DNA of 29,672 nucleotides from a virus, in the IMG/VR virus record IMGVR_UViG_3300046376_000072, positions 1 through 29,672 of that record. One strand, given 5' to 3'. This document shows, one piece after another, positions 2,919-15,862 of the stretch (the stretch's first letter is position 1; the number at the start of each line of letters is the position of its first letter). The notes below the pieces were generated by a model, which had not been told where the DNA came from, made no database searches, and saw only the letters and a list, made by a program, of their open reading frames with translations. The translations under genes were made by a program, and so were the position numbers.

Positions 2919-3359
2919 ATGGATCAGATCACGCCATCAGACCGTCTTGAATTTTCAGACGACGAAGCCACCCTCCTGCACCTGTACGCCTATCTGGAAA
3001 GGCACAAACCGACGATGGCCGAGATCAAGCGCGCCATCTGCGAACTCTACGCCATCGAGATCAGCGAACTGGAAGGACGCTCGCGCACGCGCTTCCTCGT
3101 CCTCGCGCGCCAGATATTCTGTTACCTGTCGCATCGCTACGCCCGCAAGACGCTTGGCCAGATCAAGCGCCGCGTCGGCTACACCGATCACACCACGGTT
3201 TTGCATGCCATCCGGGTCATCGAACAGTATGCCGTGACGCGCGAGCAATATCGCTACGAGGACATTGAGCGTCCCATGATCAAGGACGACCTCGACCTTT
3301 TGCGGCTTCGGCTGGTCGAGAAGGTGGTGCTGCGGCGTACCGGGGGCGGCCAATGCTGA
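2919..3359 (+). CDS. Stand-alone DnaA domain IV protein
   Basis: 146 residues; AAGGGGGG ribosome site before the ATG. Residues about 34-103 match the C-terminal DNA-binding domain of DnaA: E-I-S-E-L-E-G-R-S-R-T-R at 47-58, A-R-Q-I-F-C-Y-L, then the DnaA signature DHTTVLHAIRVIE at 90-102. The AAA+ ATPase domain of DnaA (about 340 residues) is absent, so it can bind DnaA-box-like DNA but cannot assemble a helicase-loading filament by itself. It is the second gene of the early operon, so a role in origin binding, in competing with host DnaA, or in early transcription control is likely. Domain call is strong, role inferred. Confidence 0.88.
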   Translation: MDQITPSDRLEFSDDEATLLHLYAYLERHKPTMAEIKRAICELYAIEISELEGRSRTRFLVLARQIFCYLSHRYARKTLGQIKRRVGYTDHTTVLHAIRVIEQYAVTREQYRYEDIERPMIKDDLDLLRLRLVEKVVLRRTGGGQC

Positions 3360-6593: not shown

Positions 6594-6934
6594 TGCCGCG
6601 CCCATGGATGCCGATGTACTGGGGCAATTATCTCGCGGACACCCGGCATCTCAGCCGCGCGCAGCACGGTGCGTACCTCCTGCTGATCGCTCACTACTGG
6701 ACGACGGGCAGTCTGCCCGACGACGACCGGCAGCTCGCCAACATCACCGGCTCGACGCTCGATGAATTTCAGGTGGATAAGCCGGTCCTGCAGAGATTTT
6801 TTTATGACGGCTGGAAACACAAGCGGATCGACCGGGAACTCAAGCGGCACATGGAAATCTACGCCAAACGCCTCGCGGCCAGCGAGAAAGGCACCATGGC
6901 TCTGGCCATGAAACGCTTCCGTCACCGTCAATGA
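6593..6934 (+). CDS. DUF1376 replication-associated protein
   Basis: 113 residues from ATG at 6593, overlapping the previous stop by one base (TGATG). MYWGNYLADTRHLSRAQHGA, then Y-L-L-L-I-A-H-Y-W-T-T-G-S-L-P-D-D-D and L-A-N-I-T-G match the N-terminal DUF1376 (YdaU-like) domain, found at phage replication loci and in prophage proteins preceding a helicase loader. Its usual fold is a winged-helix DNA-binding domain. The protein ends earlier than many relatives, and a rightward ORF in another frame begins over its stop (6931). No separate DnaC-like or DnaB-like gene follows in this window. Confidence 0.85.
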   Translation: MPRPWMPMYWGNYLADTRHLSRAQHGAYLLLIAHYWTTGSLPDDDRQLANITGSTLDEFQVDKPVLQRFFYDGWKHKRIDRELKRHMEIYAKRLAASEKGTMALAMKRFRHRQ

Positions 6935-7125
6935 TCCACACGGACATCCACATGGATAAGCAAATTCGATCCACATGGATGTCCGTGTGGGCTCCCAATA
7001 ACAATCACATACTTAAACTACTTCTACCTTCTCTGTTGCTGCGCGCGAGGGAACGCAATGGGAACCTTGACGACGCAGCACGGCAGGACCACAAATGGTC
7101 CCAACCATTGGGACATGCCGCATGA
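6931..7125 (+). CDS. Small ORF coupled to DUF1376 gene (64 aa)
   Basis: Starts at 6931 with ATGA overlap on the DUF1376 stop and ends with ATGA overlap on the next gene, the coupling seen throughout this operon. The product starts MIHTDIHMDKQIRSTWMSVW, contains a leucine run L-L-L-P-S-L-L-L, and has no recognised domain. A large inverted repeat (6936-6990) lies inside it. It could be a true coupled gene, the displaced C-terminal tail of DUF1376 after a frameshift, or chance reading through a structural DNA element. Support rests on the two overlaps. Confidence 0.4.
   Translation: MIHTDIHMDKQIRSTWMSVWAPNNNHILKLLLPSLLLRARERNGNLDDAARQDHKWSQPLGHAA
6936..6990. repeat. Imperfect 20-bp inverted repeat with embedded ATCCA-CA-TGGAT motif
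   Basis: Left arm 6936-6955 and right arm 6971-6990 pair at 18 of 20 positions (CCACACGGACATCC against GGATGTCCGTGTGG). The 12-bp near-palindrome ATCCACATGGAT also occurs directly at 6946-6957 and 6969-6980. It is located just behind DUF1376. It could be a replication-protein binding site (origin-like), an operator, or an RNA hairpin. It is not followed by a T-run, so a terminator is unlikely. Confidence 0.6.
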
Positions 7126-12369: not shown

Positions 12370-12605
12370 TGGTCAGCACAAAGATCACCTCGCAGCTGGC
12401 GGCGCTGGAGCAACGGATGGCTGAAGCGTTGCAGACGGCTGGAATGCACCAGATGCAGCTGATCGGGGCGCTGGCCAAAAACGGCGCGGCACTGACGGGA
12501 AAGGTCATCCAGCTGGAGGCTGAGATCAAACTGATCAGGGATAAACTCGGGTTGAGCGAAGTCACTGACATTGTGACCAAAAACGGGGAGCGTGAAGTTC
12601 CGTAA
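12369..12605 (+). CDS. Hypothetical coiled-coil protein (78 aa)
   Basis: ATG at 12369 overlapping the previous stop. The product begins MVSTKITSQLAALEQRMAEA and the heptad-rich sequence extends to G-K-V-I-Q-L-E-A-E-I-K-L-I-R-D-K-L-G, a long coiled coil typical of small phage packaging or structural accessory proteins. The next gene starts on its stop (TAATG at 12603-12607). No family recognised. Confidence 0.6.
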   Translation: MVSTKITSQLAALEQRMAEALQTAGMHQMQLIGALAKNGAALTGKVIQLEAEIKLIRDKLGLSEVTDIVTKNGEREVP

Positions 12606-12901
12606 TGCCCAGATCAGCCAAATCAATCGTCGATATCAAGAGCTTGGCCAGAGCGCACACGGAGACGTGCATCAGGGTGCTGGCGAAGATCGTGACGGAG
12701 GCGAAAGCGCCCGCATCTGCACGCGCCTTTGCGGCCAACAGCTTGCTCGACCGCGGTTGGGGCAAGGCCCCGCAGCAACTCACGGGCGAGGACGGCGGCG
12801 ATATCCGGGTGACCATCCGACAAATCCTTGTAAATGCTGCACAATCCGACACGCCGCTGATCGAGCATGATGAGGATGAGGACGGTTCTGCGTCAGGCTA
12901 A
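12605..12901 (+). CDS. Terminase small subunit candidate
   Basis: 98 residues. A-R-A-H-T-E-T-C-I-R-V-L-A-K-I-V and A-P-A-S-A-R-A-F-A-A-N-S-L-L-D-R-G-W-G-K-A-P-Q follow the pattern L-x-R-x-H-T-x-A-x-x-x-L-x-x-I-x ... A-x-x-A-A-x-x-L-L-D-R-G-x-G-K-x-P-Q of DNA-binding helical phage proteins often annotated as terminase small subunits. It precedes the large terminase by about 1.6 kb and the palindrome-rich noncoding stretch directly follows it. The same pattern also occurs in other integrated elements, so the role is probable, not certain. The acidic tail D-E-D-E-D-G may contact partners. Confidence 0.5.
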   Translation: MPRSAKSIVDIKSLARAHTETCIRVLAKIVTEAKAPASARAFAANSLLDRGWGKAPQQLTGEDGGDIRVTIRQILVNAAQSDTPLIEHDEDEDGSASG

Positions 12902-13120
12902 CGGACGTTAGCATAGCGCAGCCGCTGCCGATCGACAGTCTAACGCATTGATATCATTGAGCATTCGCATCGCCTGCCTCGATCGAGGAGGGATGCAACC
13001 ACGCTGCATCTGGATACATCAATGATATCAAGGGGTTAGGGGGTGCCTACCGTAGTTCTACGGGGGTGGGGAACCTCCGGGGTGGTATGTCGGGATTCGA
13101 TCCGATCAGGTACCGGTACC
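12897..13120. repeat. Palindrome-rich noncoding stretch (candidate packaging or control site)
   Basis: Between the terminase small subunit candidate and the next gene lie six perfect inverted repeats: GCTAAC-GGAC-GTTAGC (12897-12912), a 13-bp pair TTGATATCATTGA / TCAATGATATCAA (12948-12960 and 13019-13031), CCTCGATCGAGG (12977-12988), GATGCA/TGCATC (12992-12997, 13005-13010), CCGTAG-TT-CTACGG (13050-13063) and GGTACCGGTACC (13109-13120). Such density next to terminase genes fits a pac/cos-type recognition site, an operator cluster or a partition site. No gene is supported in 12902-13172. Confidence 0.55.
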
Positions 13121-13172
13121 GGTTATTTACCCACTTTCCCGCGCTGCCTTTTCGAGTTTCCGCGAGGATCAC

Positions 13173-13457
13173 ATGGACGCACCCGTCTGCCGAACCTGCG
13201 GCCAGAAGCACTGGACGAGGCTCTGTCCCGGCGACGATGTAACGCCTGACGTTACCAAGCCTGTAACGAAGCTCGTTACGGTAACGAAGCACGTTACACA
13301 GACCATCGTGGACCTTGTCGCCGAGAACGAGGCGTTGCGCGCCGAGGTCGCCATGCTGAAGCGGAAGCTGGCCGAGGCAAACAAGGTGCCGATGACGTCA
13401 GCGGAGCGGGTCAGGAAGCACCGGGCGAAGCCCGTTCCTGCCGGTAAACCACGCTGA
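13173..13457 (+). CDS. Zinc-finger protein with VT-repeat segment (94 aa)
   Basis: ATG 13173 behind a GAGGATC ribosome site. C-R-T-C-G-Q-K-H-W-T-R-L-C-P-G at 6-20 gives a CxxC...C/H metal site. Residues about 23-45 repeat V-T (D-V-T-P-D-V-T-K-P-V-T-K-L-V-T-V-T-K-H-V-T). A helical leucine-rich stretch follows (E-N-E-A-L-R-A-E-V-A-M-L-K-R-K-L-A-E), and the basic R-V-R-K-H-R-A-K ending resembles the R-x-x-x-Y/H-R motif common in phage DNA-binding accessory proteins. The V-T codons contain three 17-bp palindromes (13239-13297). Function unknown. Confidence 0.7.
   Translation: MDAPVCRTCGQKHWTRLCPGDDVTPDVTKPVTKLVTVTKHVTQTIVDLVAENEALRAEVAMLKRKLAEANKVPMTSAERVRKHRAKPVPAGKPR
13239..13297. repeat. Three GTAACG-N5-CGTTAC palindromes inside a coding sequence
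   Basis: Units at 13239-13255, 13263-13279 and 13281-13297 share the same 6-bp arms and a 5-base spacer (CCTGA, AAGCT, AAGCA). Each encodes Val-Thr, producing the V-T repeat of the host gene. The identical arms go beyond what the amino acids require, because Val and Thr each have four codons. A regularly spaced palindrome array suggests a protein-binding site, such as an autoregulatory or partition-like site. Confidence 0.65.
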
Positions 13458-13620: not shown

Positions 13621-13807
13621 GAAGTACGTCACCACCAGCTTTGATCCGCACGACTACGACCAGATCGTCCTCTTGGCCGCGGTCCACCACGTCTCGGTGT
13701 CGGCGATCGTCCGCAATATCTGCAAGGCCCACCTCGACGGCCTGCCGGTCAGGGTCCCAGCCGCGGAGATGGTGGGCCAGGTTAGTCTAACAGACGGGTT
13801 AGACTAA
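13619..13807 (+). CDS. Ribbon-helix-helix-like protein (62 aa)
   Basis: ATG 13619 sharing CATG with the leftward gene start. M-K-Y-V-T-T-S-F-D-P-H-D-Y-D-Q-I-V-L-L-A-A-V-H-H-V-S-V-S-A-I-V-R-N-I-C-K-A-H-L at residues 1-39 is a beta strand, a helix and a second helix with S-x-S-x-I-V-R-N, the outline of a CopG/Arc-type ribbon-helix-helix fold (T-S-F as the DNA-contact strand). Probably a small DNA-binding regulator. Its 3' end carries the 11-bp inverted repeat (13781-13808). No clear ribosome site is visible because the divergent gene occupies the upstream bases. Confidence 0.6.
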   Translation: MKYVTTSFDPHDYDQIVLLAAVHHVSVSAIVRNICKAHLDGLPVRVPAAEMVGQVSLTDGLD

Positions 13808-13808
13808 C
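13781..13808. promoter_or_regulatory. 11-bp inverted repeat hairpin at the start codon of the next gene
   Basis: GTTAGTCTAAC (13781-13791) and GTTAGACTAAC (13798-13808) are exact reverse complements around a 6-base loop (AGACGG), and each arm is itself palindromic around one central base. The next ATG (13809) follows immediately. It may be an operator, a hairpin that limits translation, or both. The half-site GTTAGTC occurs as an inverted repeat upstream of the leftward HTH gene at 8541-8567. Confidence 0.6.
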
Positions 13809-14042
13809 ATGGCCCTTCCCCGCGAGCTGCCGCCACCGGAGGACCTCTATGGCCCATCTGACCAAGCGCGAGCTGAAGAACCTCAAGCGCAAAGCGCCCC
13901 TGTTACTGCGGAGCAAACGGGCCGTGCGGATGTCGCGCGTTCCAAAGCGCCGCCCGCCGCGCCGAAGCGAAGCGTAGGCGGGTTCGACCGCAGGACCTAT
14001 CAAAGGGAATACATGAGGAAGAGGCGTCAGCGATCGGGATAG
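13809..14042 (+). CDS. Hypothetical basic-tailed protein (77 aa)
   Basis: Begins MALPRELPPPEDLYGPSDQA, has an Ala/Gln-rich linker, and ends F-D-R-R-T-Y-Q-R-E-Y-M-R-K-R-R-Q-R-S-G, a basic helix with the Y-Q-R-E-Y-M-R-K motif common in phage DNA-associated proteins. The start follows the hairpin 13781-13808 without a Shine-Dalgarno sequence, so translation may depend on coupling with the gene before it. An alternative frame starts at 13849 behind a good GGAGG. Confidence 0.5.
   Translation: MALPRELPPPEDLYGPSDQARAEEPQAQSAPVTAEQTGRADVARSKAPPAAPKRSVGGFDRRTYQREYMRKRRQRSG
13849..13977 (+). CDS. Alternative nested ORF, 42 aa, very basic
   Basis: ATG 13849 is preceded by CCGGAGGACC, a better ribosome site than that of the overlapping gene at 13809. 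The product begins MAHLTKRELKNLKRKAPLLL and is extremely basic and Arg/Lys-rich. It lies wholly inside the 13809-14042 gene in another frame, so it may be a real nested gene or the main product, with the longer frame secondary. No family recognised. Confidence 0.3.
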   Translation: MAHLTKRELKNLKRKAPLLLRSKRAVRMSRVPKRRPPRRSEA

Positions 14043-14497: not shown

Positions 14498-15862
14498 ATG
14501 CCTGACGTCAGCCTGCCGCACAACGGCTGGATGCCACGCGCGCACCAGATGAAGCTGTGGCAGTACCTGCAAGCCGGTGGCGACCGCGCCATGGCGGTCT
14601 GGCATCGTCGGGCCGGTAAAGATGAAATTTTTTTGCACCACGCCGCCTGCGCCGCCATGCAGCGACCGGGAAATTATTGGCACTGCCTTCCCGAATACCT
14701 GATGGCGAGGAAAGCGATCTGGACCGCGATCAACGCCAATACCGGGAAACGCCGCCTCGATGAGGCCTTCCCCGATGCGCTCCGCGAGAACGTCTCCGAC
14801 AACGAGATGTTCATCCGCTTCAAGAACGGATCGACGTGGCAGCTGATCGGAAGTGACAGATACGACGCCACCGTGGGTTCCGGTGTCGCGGGCGTCACTT
14901 ACTCCGAATGGTCTTTGGCCAACCCCAGTGCGTGGGCCTACCACCGCCCCATGCTGGTCGAGAACAAGGGCTGGGCCGCGTTCATTACGACGCCCCGTGG
15001 TCACAACCACGCAAAAGCGATGTTCGACTACGCCAAGACGTCCAAGGACTGGTTCTGCGAGCTTCTCACCGCAAGAGACACCGGGGCGTTGAGCGAGAGC
15101 GAACTCGCCTCCGCACTGGAGGAATATCAGGCGCTGTACGGTCAGGACGTCGGCACCGCCCAGTTCGAGCAAGAGTATCTGTGTTCGTGGAACGCCGCGA
15201 TCTTGGGAGCCTTCTACGCCATGGAAATGGCGCAGGTGCGCGCCGAGAACCGCATCTGCGAGATCGAGGCAATGCCCGATCAGCCCGTGCACGTCTCTTG
15301 GGACTTGGGTGTCCGCGACGATACGGCGCTGTGGTTCTACCAGACCGTCGGCGCGCAGGTGTTCGTCCTCGACTGCTATTCCGCCTCAGGCGTCGGCGTC
15401 GAACACTACGCCTCCGTGATTGAACAGCGCGAACGCGACTACGGCTGGAAGCACGGCACCGACTACGTCCCGCACGACGCCAAGATCAAGGAATGGGGGT
15501 CCGGTCGAACCCGCATCGAGACCATGCTGACCTTCAATCTGCACCCGATGCTGGTCCCCAGCGCCTCGATCGCCGACGGCATCAACGCGGTGCGACGATT
15601 GCTTCCGCTGTGCGTGTTTCATCCGCGCTGCGACGACGGCATCAATGCGATGGAACAGCATCGCCGGGAATGGGACGACGACAAGAAGGCGTTTCGGGCT
15701 TCCGCGGTCCACGACTGGACCTCGCACTTCGCCGACAGTTTTCGCTACCTCGCCTTCGCGTGGCAACCCGCCGCCATCCGCAGGCCCAAGACCAGCGTTC
15801 CGACGTCGGGCTGGATCATTCCGCCGCCGCAGGAACCACGAAACCGAGGAATCATCCTGTGA
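14498..15862 (+). CDS. Terminase large subunit
   Basis: 454 residues. W-H-R-R-A-G-K-D-E at 35-43 is the Walker A of phage terminases (R/G-A-G-K), V-T-Y-S-E-W at 133-138 the Walker B with Glu137, and F-I-T-T-P-R-G at 162-168 the coupling motif. The C-terminal RNase H-like nuclease shows S-W-D-L-G-V (Asp269), P-H-D-A (Asp327) and H-F-A-D-S-F-R-Y (Asp413). The enzyme translocates DNA into the prohead and cuts concatemers. It begins the morphogenesis operon; the portal follows after 3 bases. Confidence 0.93.
   Translation: MPDVSLPHNGWMPRAHQMKLWQYLQAGGDRAMAVWHRRAGKDEIFLHHAACAAMQRPGNYWHCLPEYLMARKAIWTAINANTGKRRLDEAFPDALRENVSDNEMFIRFKNGSTWQLIGSDRYDATVGSGVAGVTYSEWSLANPSAWAYHRPMLVENKGWAAFITTPRGHNHAKAMFDYAKTSKDWFCELLTARDTGALSESELASALEEYQALYGQDVGTAQFEQEYLCSWNAAILGAFYAMEMAQVRAENRICEIEAMPDQPVHVSWDLGVRDDTALWFYQTVGAQVFVLDCYSASGVGVEHYASVIEQRERDYGWKHGTDYVPHDAKIKEWGSGRTRIETMLTFNLHPMLVPSASIADGINAVRRLLPLCVFHPRCDDGINAMEQHRREWDDDKKAFRASAVHDWTSHFADSFRYLAFAWQPAAIRRPKTSVPTSGWIIPPPQEPRNRGIIL

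Follow-up and report, generated by a model that had tools for sequence, protein, structure and literature searches.

The locus described here raises the question of whether a repeat inside a short phage gene is kept for the peptide that it encodes or for its DNA and, if for its DNA, which protein reads it. Scanning of the whole window (the entire stretch analysed, a virus record of 29,672 bases) revealed three perfect copies of GTAACG-N5-CGTTAC, all of them within the ORF at 13173-13457 and none elsewhere. They occupy codons 23-42 in frame as V-T, so that the three V-T-encoding copies claimed in the initial annotation were recovered at 13239-13255, 13263-13279 and 13281-13297, and a secondary dyad arises at 13251-13267 because GTA and GTT codons alternate.

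13239-13255, no strand assigned: palindrome 1, GTAACGCCTGACGTTAC (dyad and pattern scans of the window)
13251-13267, no strand assigned: secondary dyad GTTACCAAGCCTGTAAC with 5-bp arms (dyad scan of the window)
13263-13279, no strand assigned: palindrome 2, GTAACGAAGCTCGTTAC (dyad and pattern scans of the window)
13281-13297, no strand assigned: palindrome 3, GTAACGAAGCACGTTAC (dyad and pattern scans of the window)

The looser dyad GTNAC-N7-GTNAC was observed five times in the window versus 0.16 expected (maximum over 100 shuffles, 4), and four of these five are array members (starting at 13239, 13251, 13263 and 13281). The valine codon GTA accounts for 1 of 226 valine codons in the long genes of the window versus 3 of 6 in the array, and the probability of finding only GTA and GTT at the six array valines is about 1e-6. 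When the array was resampled with peptide and normal codon usage preserved, three 6-N5-6 dyads of any letters appeared in about 1.3% of cases. Given peptide and codon usage alone, three dyads are therefore not very rare, and it is the rare codons together with the homologues that constitute strong evidence; as the peptide by itself makes dyads fairly easy to obtain, a comparison of homologues was needed.

The gene encodes a small protein in which the metal-site motif and basic tail noted in the initial annotation are both seen.

13173-13457, + strand: gene whose product (94 residues) combines a motif resembling a zinc knuckle, the V-T linker, a long helix and a C-terminal basic helix (ORF, homologues, AlphaFold2 model)
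13188-13226, + strand: C-X2-C-X3-H-X4-C motif, residues 6-18, with ligands invariant in 17 homologues; putative metal site
13287-13379, + strand: long helix, residues 39-69, probable coiled coil (AlphaFold2 and marginal coiled-coil PDB matches)
13398-13427, + strand: basic helix, residues 76-85, SAERVRKHRA (AlphaFold2; residues after ER match the site class)

Residues C6, C9, H13 and C18, invariant among the 17 homologues, are four conserved candidate metal ligands of a CCHC zinc knuckle, and on this basis the protein may bind zinc. Its C-X2-C-X3-H-X4-C spacing differs from that of the retroviral CCHC zinc knuckle, which is C-X2-C-X4-H-X4-C, and a Pfam search returned no match for the motif. 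Pfam and PHROG searches of the whole protein likewise gave no match and no replication initiator domain. A heptad-like stretch lies between the V-T repeats and the basic tail. The AlphaFold2 model built from 17 sequences places helices at residues 39-69 and 76-85 and leaves the V-T linker unstructured (overall mean pLDDT 77, pTM 0.35; mean pLDDT 80-95 per ten-residue block across residues 41-70), and PDB profile matches were marginal and for the most part to coiled coils. Dimerisation via the long helix is probable from this model.

The array gene sits between an upstream TerS-like gene and the gene for the terminase large subunit (TerL), and TerS is a separate gene in the window and its relatives alike.

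12605-12901, + strand: TerS-like gene (PHROG matches: phrog_15261; the L092 homologue also matches phrog_10899, terminase small subunit)
14498-15862, + strand: terminase large subunit (phrog_2, phrog_2472)

The fifth GTNAC-N7-GTNAC dyad of the window, a single GTCACTGACATTGTGAC at 12561-12577, lies in the V-T frame of an ORF upstream of the TerS-like gene and may be a chance occurrence. The interval that separates the array gene from the TerS-like gene also contains a 21-bp inverted repeat (90%) with arms at 12940-12960 and 13019-13039, 58 bases apart.

Scanning DNA for a pattern of two dyads close together uncovered a relative in L092, and a degenerate CxxCGxxHWxRxC pattern combined with terminase neighbours added about 20 more relatives, part of them without an array. 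About 15 array-bearing homologues were thus collected from other phage contigs, all sharing the cysteine-histidine motif, linker, helix and basic tail. No homologue emerged from a single-protein search of viral contigs with the window protein, and tblastn with three family members against phages and plasmids gave no match. A profile search of 398 Hyphomicrobiales genomes with 12 candidates scored per genome found none, a scope so thin that it shows little, and the CCHC DNA pattern gave three matches only among 385 alphaproteobacterial genomes, which we judged from their sequence to be chance. A terminase search of genomes recovered related terminases, but no homologue of the 94-residue protein in their short loci. 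Among open-licence papers, we found no description of this protein family.

Comparison of these homologues speaks for the DNA. In members with V-T, all 41 V-T-x-x-V-T pairs are symmetric, i.e. have complementary third bases, versus 24.5 symmetric pairs on average and at most 37 when valine third bases were shuffled within genes. The codon pairs fall into four classes (GTAAC/GTTAC, GTTAC/GTAAC, GTCAC/GTGAC and GTGAC/GTCAC), and each phage uses a single class for its GTNACG-N5-CGTNAC sites.

Class A, GTAACG-N5-CGTTAC: window, L092, L150, L151, L273, L287
Class T, GTTACG-N5-CGTAAC: L171, L264, L268, L298
Class C, GTCACG-N5-CGTGAC: L174, L180
Class G, GTGACG-N5-CGTCAC: L272, L279

Over the part that aligns, the L272 and window proteins share 70% identity, and the L272 array has the same spacing with six of six valine codons switched synonymously. 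In L178 the peptide reads V-A in place of V-T, yet the palindrome is kept as GCAACG-N5-CGTTGC; the arrays of L175 and L265 are irregular. On the array-bearing phage contigs of 39-45 kb, symmetric GTNACG-N5-CGTNAC occurs only at the array, i.e. at one locus per genome, and the L174 contig has two additional asymmetric matches away from it. Because codons switch class in concert and the palindrome of L178 outlives V-T, selection on the nucleic acid, and on the DNA at the array, is strongly supported. The proposal of the initial annotation that selection may act on DNA is thus strongly supported by the 41 symmetric pairs and the concerted synonymous switches. It had also suggested that homologues keeping V-T with varied codons would speak against a DNA site; the codons do vary, but always in a manner that keeps the palindrome.

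We then asked what reads the sites and compared site class with residues of the C-terminal tail. At +1 after ER, class A has V (with Q in the distant L151), classes T and G have M, and class C has A or Q; at +4, class A has H or L (W in L151), class T has M or C, class G has L, and class C has Y or S. Mutual information between class and these residues amounts to 1.30 bits for +1 and 1.47 bits for +4, values reached by 8 and 61 of 50,000 permutations, respectively; as the two positions were noticed by inspection before testing in a set of 14-15 sequences, we corrected for about 45 position pairs, which leaves p below about 0.003. By the same measure, no association with site class was seen at any of 18 positions in the cysteine-histidine motif (p >= 0.14). 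Class does not follow the similarity of the proteins as a whole: with L151 left out, class and backbone identity of the 14 sequences correlate at 0.05 (mean identity 0.61 within and 0.60 between classes), and once backbone identity is controlled for, class and tail show a partial correlation of 0.75 (0 of 20,000 permutations). L151, with Q at +1 and W at +4, breaks the match between class and tail. Relatives with an array carry this basic tail (type 1), while array-less zinc-knuckle relatives mostly carry another tail or none; L292 has a type-1 tail and no array. TerS was considered as the reader and is unlikely, since classes A and T are each found with two unrelated TerS types. Because site class changes in step with the protein's own tail, binding of the array by the product of its own gene is probable. 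The initial annotation had proposed such binding, and the agreement between class and the protein's own tail residues adds to that proposal, with the binding itself still putative.

On this basis we propose that the palindromes of the array are sites at which the protein encoded by the surrounding gene binds double-stranded DNA. The protein would dimerise via the long helix and its C-terminal basic helix would read GTNACG-N5-CGTNAC, one helix per half-site, while the V-T linker would serve as a flexible spacer peptide, its codon choice imposed by the site in the DNA. Bound in this way within the terminase region, the protein would block transcription running through the gene that encodes it. 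We infer dimerisation, zinc binding, DNA binding and the autoregulatory effect from the features described above. Dimeric autorepressors and bZIP-like readers have palindromic sites, a coiled-coil dimer, a basic recognition helix and sites at their own gene. The window locus resembles them by analogy, not homology, in its palindromes, probable coiled-coil dimer, basic helix and placement of the sites at its own gene, and departs from bZIP-like readers in that the basic helix follows the coiled coil rather than preceding it and the type-1 sites lie inside coding sequence.

Autoregulation is favoured since no sites lie outside the early (5') part of the gene and since a sister system has its palindromes in an operator-like position. 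In this second system, a tail of the type FDRxxYQREYMRxxRR goes with paired GTNAG-N-CTNAC palindromes 17-20 bp apart, and in three of four cases (window, L261 and L284) the pair lies directly before the start codon.

13781-13808: palindromes GTTAGTCTAAC and GTTAGACTAAC, 17 bp apart, touching the ATG of the ORF that starts at 13809
13809-14042: small gene with the tail FDRRTYQREYMRKRR and the palindrome pair touching its start codon

The arrangement in L284 is as in the window, with GTAAGTCTTAC, and in L283 the pair is about 510 bp upstream of its gene. With GT.AC set aside as the pattern by which the loci had been collected, GT.AG is the leading paired 11-bp dyad in several unrelated loci, namely in the window, L261, L283 and L284; five other genes with the second tail type have no such palindrome pair. 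The second tail and its dyad pair appear to form a parallel tail-and-dyad system. Consistent with an autoregulatory operator, the type-1 sites are limited to their own gene or control region across whole phage contigs. Several points count against this reading: the array begins 66 bases into the gene, while operators usually lie at the promoter; the terminase linkage suggests a role beyond autoregulation alone; and co-inheritance of array and tail through recombination could mimic co-evolution. As self-recognition is probable and an autoregulatory consequence was rated lower, the joint reading, a self-recognised array with autoregulatory consequence, is our best explanation, and one that we hold with moderate confidence.

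The main rival, since the gene comes after TerS of three families, is a packaging accessory, in which protein on the array would mark the phage genome close to its terminase genes and, in the manner of a second recognition subunit, help TerS and TerL to start packaging, with the array as a pac-like element located within the gene of its own recogniser. Relatives with the cysteine-histidine motif follow TerS genes of the GWGK type, the Sf6 type and Terminase_2, they precede TerL genes whose types also vary among the loci, and there is one array locus per genome. A precedent is the pac site of P22, a single 22-bp asymmetric sequence inside the TerS gene (PMC9611059), which the window array resembles as a candidate recognition site inside a terminase-region gene. 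Unlike P22 pac, the window family has two to five palindromes, located in a separate gene after TerS that is not the small terminase, and the array is missing from phages with closely related terminases. Indeed, L167-L170, whose TerL and TerS are 75-77% and 60-63% identical to those of the window, have no array, blastp found no such gene in them, and in L168 and L169 other small ORFs take its place. A separate element next to TerS is the stronger candidate for such a packaging site, or for a promoter.

13062-13140, no strand assigned: conserved non-coding element located after the TerS-like gene and before the array gene, candidate packaging site (cos/pac) or promoter

This element reads GGGGTGGG..GTCGGGATT..GGTACCGGTACCGGTTATT and has 25 invariant columns in nine phages, whether an array is present or absent. 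The array-less close terminase relatives and this separate element weaken the case for the array as a pac or cos site, and we consider the packaging accessory unlikely.

Still less likely, and in our view improbable, is a replication origin in which the palindromes would be iterons and the protein an initiator. The model for such an arrangement is oriλ inside gene O, with four iterons that are 18-bp hyphenated dyads and an AT-rich region (PMC6022878). As with oriλ, the dyad sites of the window array are several in number and lie within the coding sequence of their presumed binder, and a similar basic motif is found beside CGTNAC repeats inside many phage replication-initiator genes. Unlike oriλ, the sites are perfect 6-N5-6 palindromes without an AT-rich tract, in a different gene neighbourhood and within a gene for a different protein, a terminase-region gene product without a replication domain. 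In eight members the stretch after the array is no richer in AT than the genome, and purine- or AT-rich tracts follow several initiator arrays but not those of the window family. Moreover, the window has a better origin candidate elsewhere, a Bac_DnaA_C protein together with ATCCACA repeats; the missing AT-rich tract and this candidate make an origin at the array less likely. This candidate origin comprises 6934-7000 together with 2919-3359: a DUF1376 gene ends in ATCCACA repeats that form a long inverted repeat, and the phage also encodes a protein with a DnaA C-terminal domain (Bac_DnaA_C). Overall, the array has the site-in-own-gene layout of oriλ and P22 pac, but it lacks defining features of both for which it was examined.

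Hairpins in the messenger, with pairing rather than DNA sites conserved, would fit the finding that the variable position shows all four Watson-Crick pairs, as stems of RNA do. However, the 41 pairs include no G-U, stem pairing does not require one class for all GTNACG-N5-CGTNAC copies of an array, and the window array folds only weakly better than shuffles (z -1.74), all of which favours double-stranded DNA; basic helix residues also track site class, and we regard RNA hairpins as very improbable. An ordinary V-T repeat peptide, with palindromes as a by-product of repeated V-T codons, draws on GTNAC being automatic from V-T and on the resampling figure above, but is scarcely credible in view of the near absence of GTA elsewhere in the window, the concerted class switching, the palindrome of L178 that persists without V-T and the predicted lack of structure in the linker.

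Returning to the self-recognised array, its tail and half-site have counterparts in other phage genes, many of which have an RQxRYRxRxK-like motif beside CGTNAC repeats that are read as V-T, R-N or R-D depending on the frame. Nine of the ten such genes examined match replication or replication-initiation families, including Phage_rep_org_N and DUF1376.

Genes with RQxRYRxRxK-like motif and CGTNAC repeats, mostly replication initiators: L309, L321, L330, L333, L345, L363, L365, L388, L397, L404, L413

These initiators (Phage_rep_org_N, DUF1376 and related PHROGs) share with the window family a similar basic motif, the CGTNAC half-site, a 12-base periodicity and the placement of both in the same gene. 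In their arrays the repeats are for the most part direct or mixed and come after the motif, whereas the window family has inverted pairs, a C-terminal motif and no replication domain. It is possible, and we raise it tentatively, that the basic helix (AERxRxxRxR or RQxRYRxRxK) is a widespread phage DNA-reading module with cognate CGTNAC half-sites in its own gene and a residue-to-base code, site and reader changing specificity together in terminase-linked factors and replication initiators alike. In the proposed code, V would specify CGTTAC, M would specify CGTAAC or CGTCAC, with the +4 residue deciding between them, and A or Q would specify CGTGAC. The code is seen in the zinc-knuckle family only and is not evident in the initiators.

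Sites of this type also occur in other settings. Pairs of GTAACG-N5-CGTTAC lie in intergenic, promoter-like positions near XRE-type regulators (L015 12994-13043, L146 6760-6809, L148 6100-6149 and L139 6424-6475). These pairs, from Sphingomonas and Martelella prophages, are probably repressor operators with identical letters. For the window array, a phage repressor operator was rejected, as symmetric sites occur only at the array in the window's relatives and none lies between the regulator genes of the window. Verrucomicrobial genomes, mostly Opitutae, have repeated GTAACGTATTACGTTAC-like palindromes about 46 bp apart and outside V-T frames.

Genomes with GTAACGTATTACGTTAC-like palindromes: L123-L125, L128-L130, L134-L135, L137-L138, L140, L142, L144

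Judged from the sequence comparisons, the array thus appears to be an unusually clean case of coding DNA under a DNA-binding constraint, in which synonymous codons of four classes vary jointly, in the manner of base pairs, and do so in step with amino acids at other places of the protein that they encode. If this reading is true, the family would offer a testable recognition code and a means by which a phage switches its DNA specificity at one locus, site and reader together, and it would connect the iteron-like arrays found in many phage replication initiators with a factor from the terminase region.
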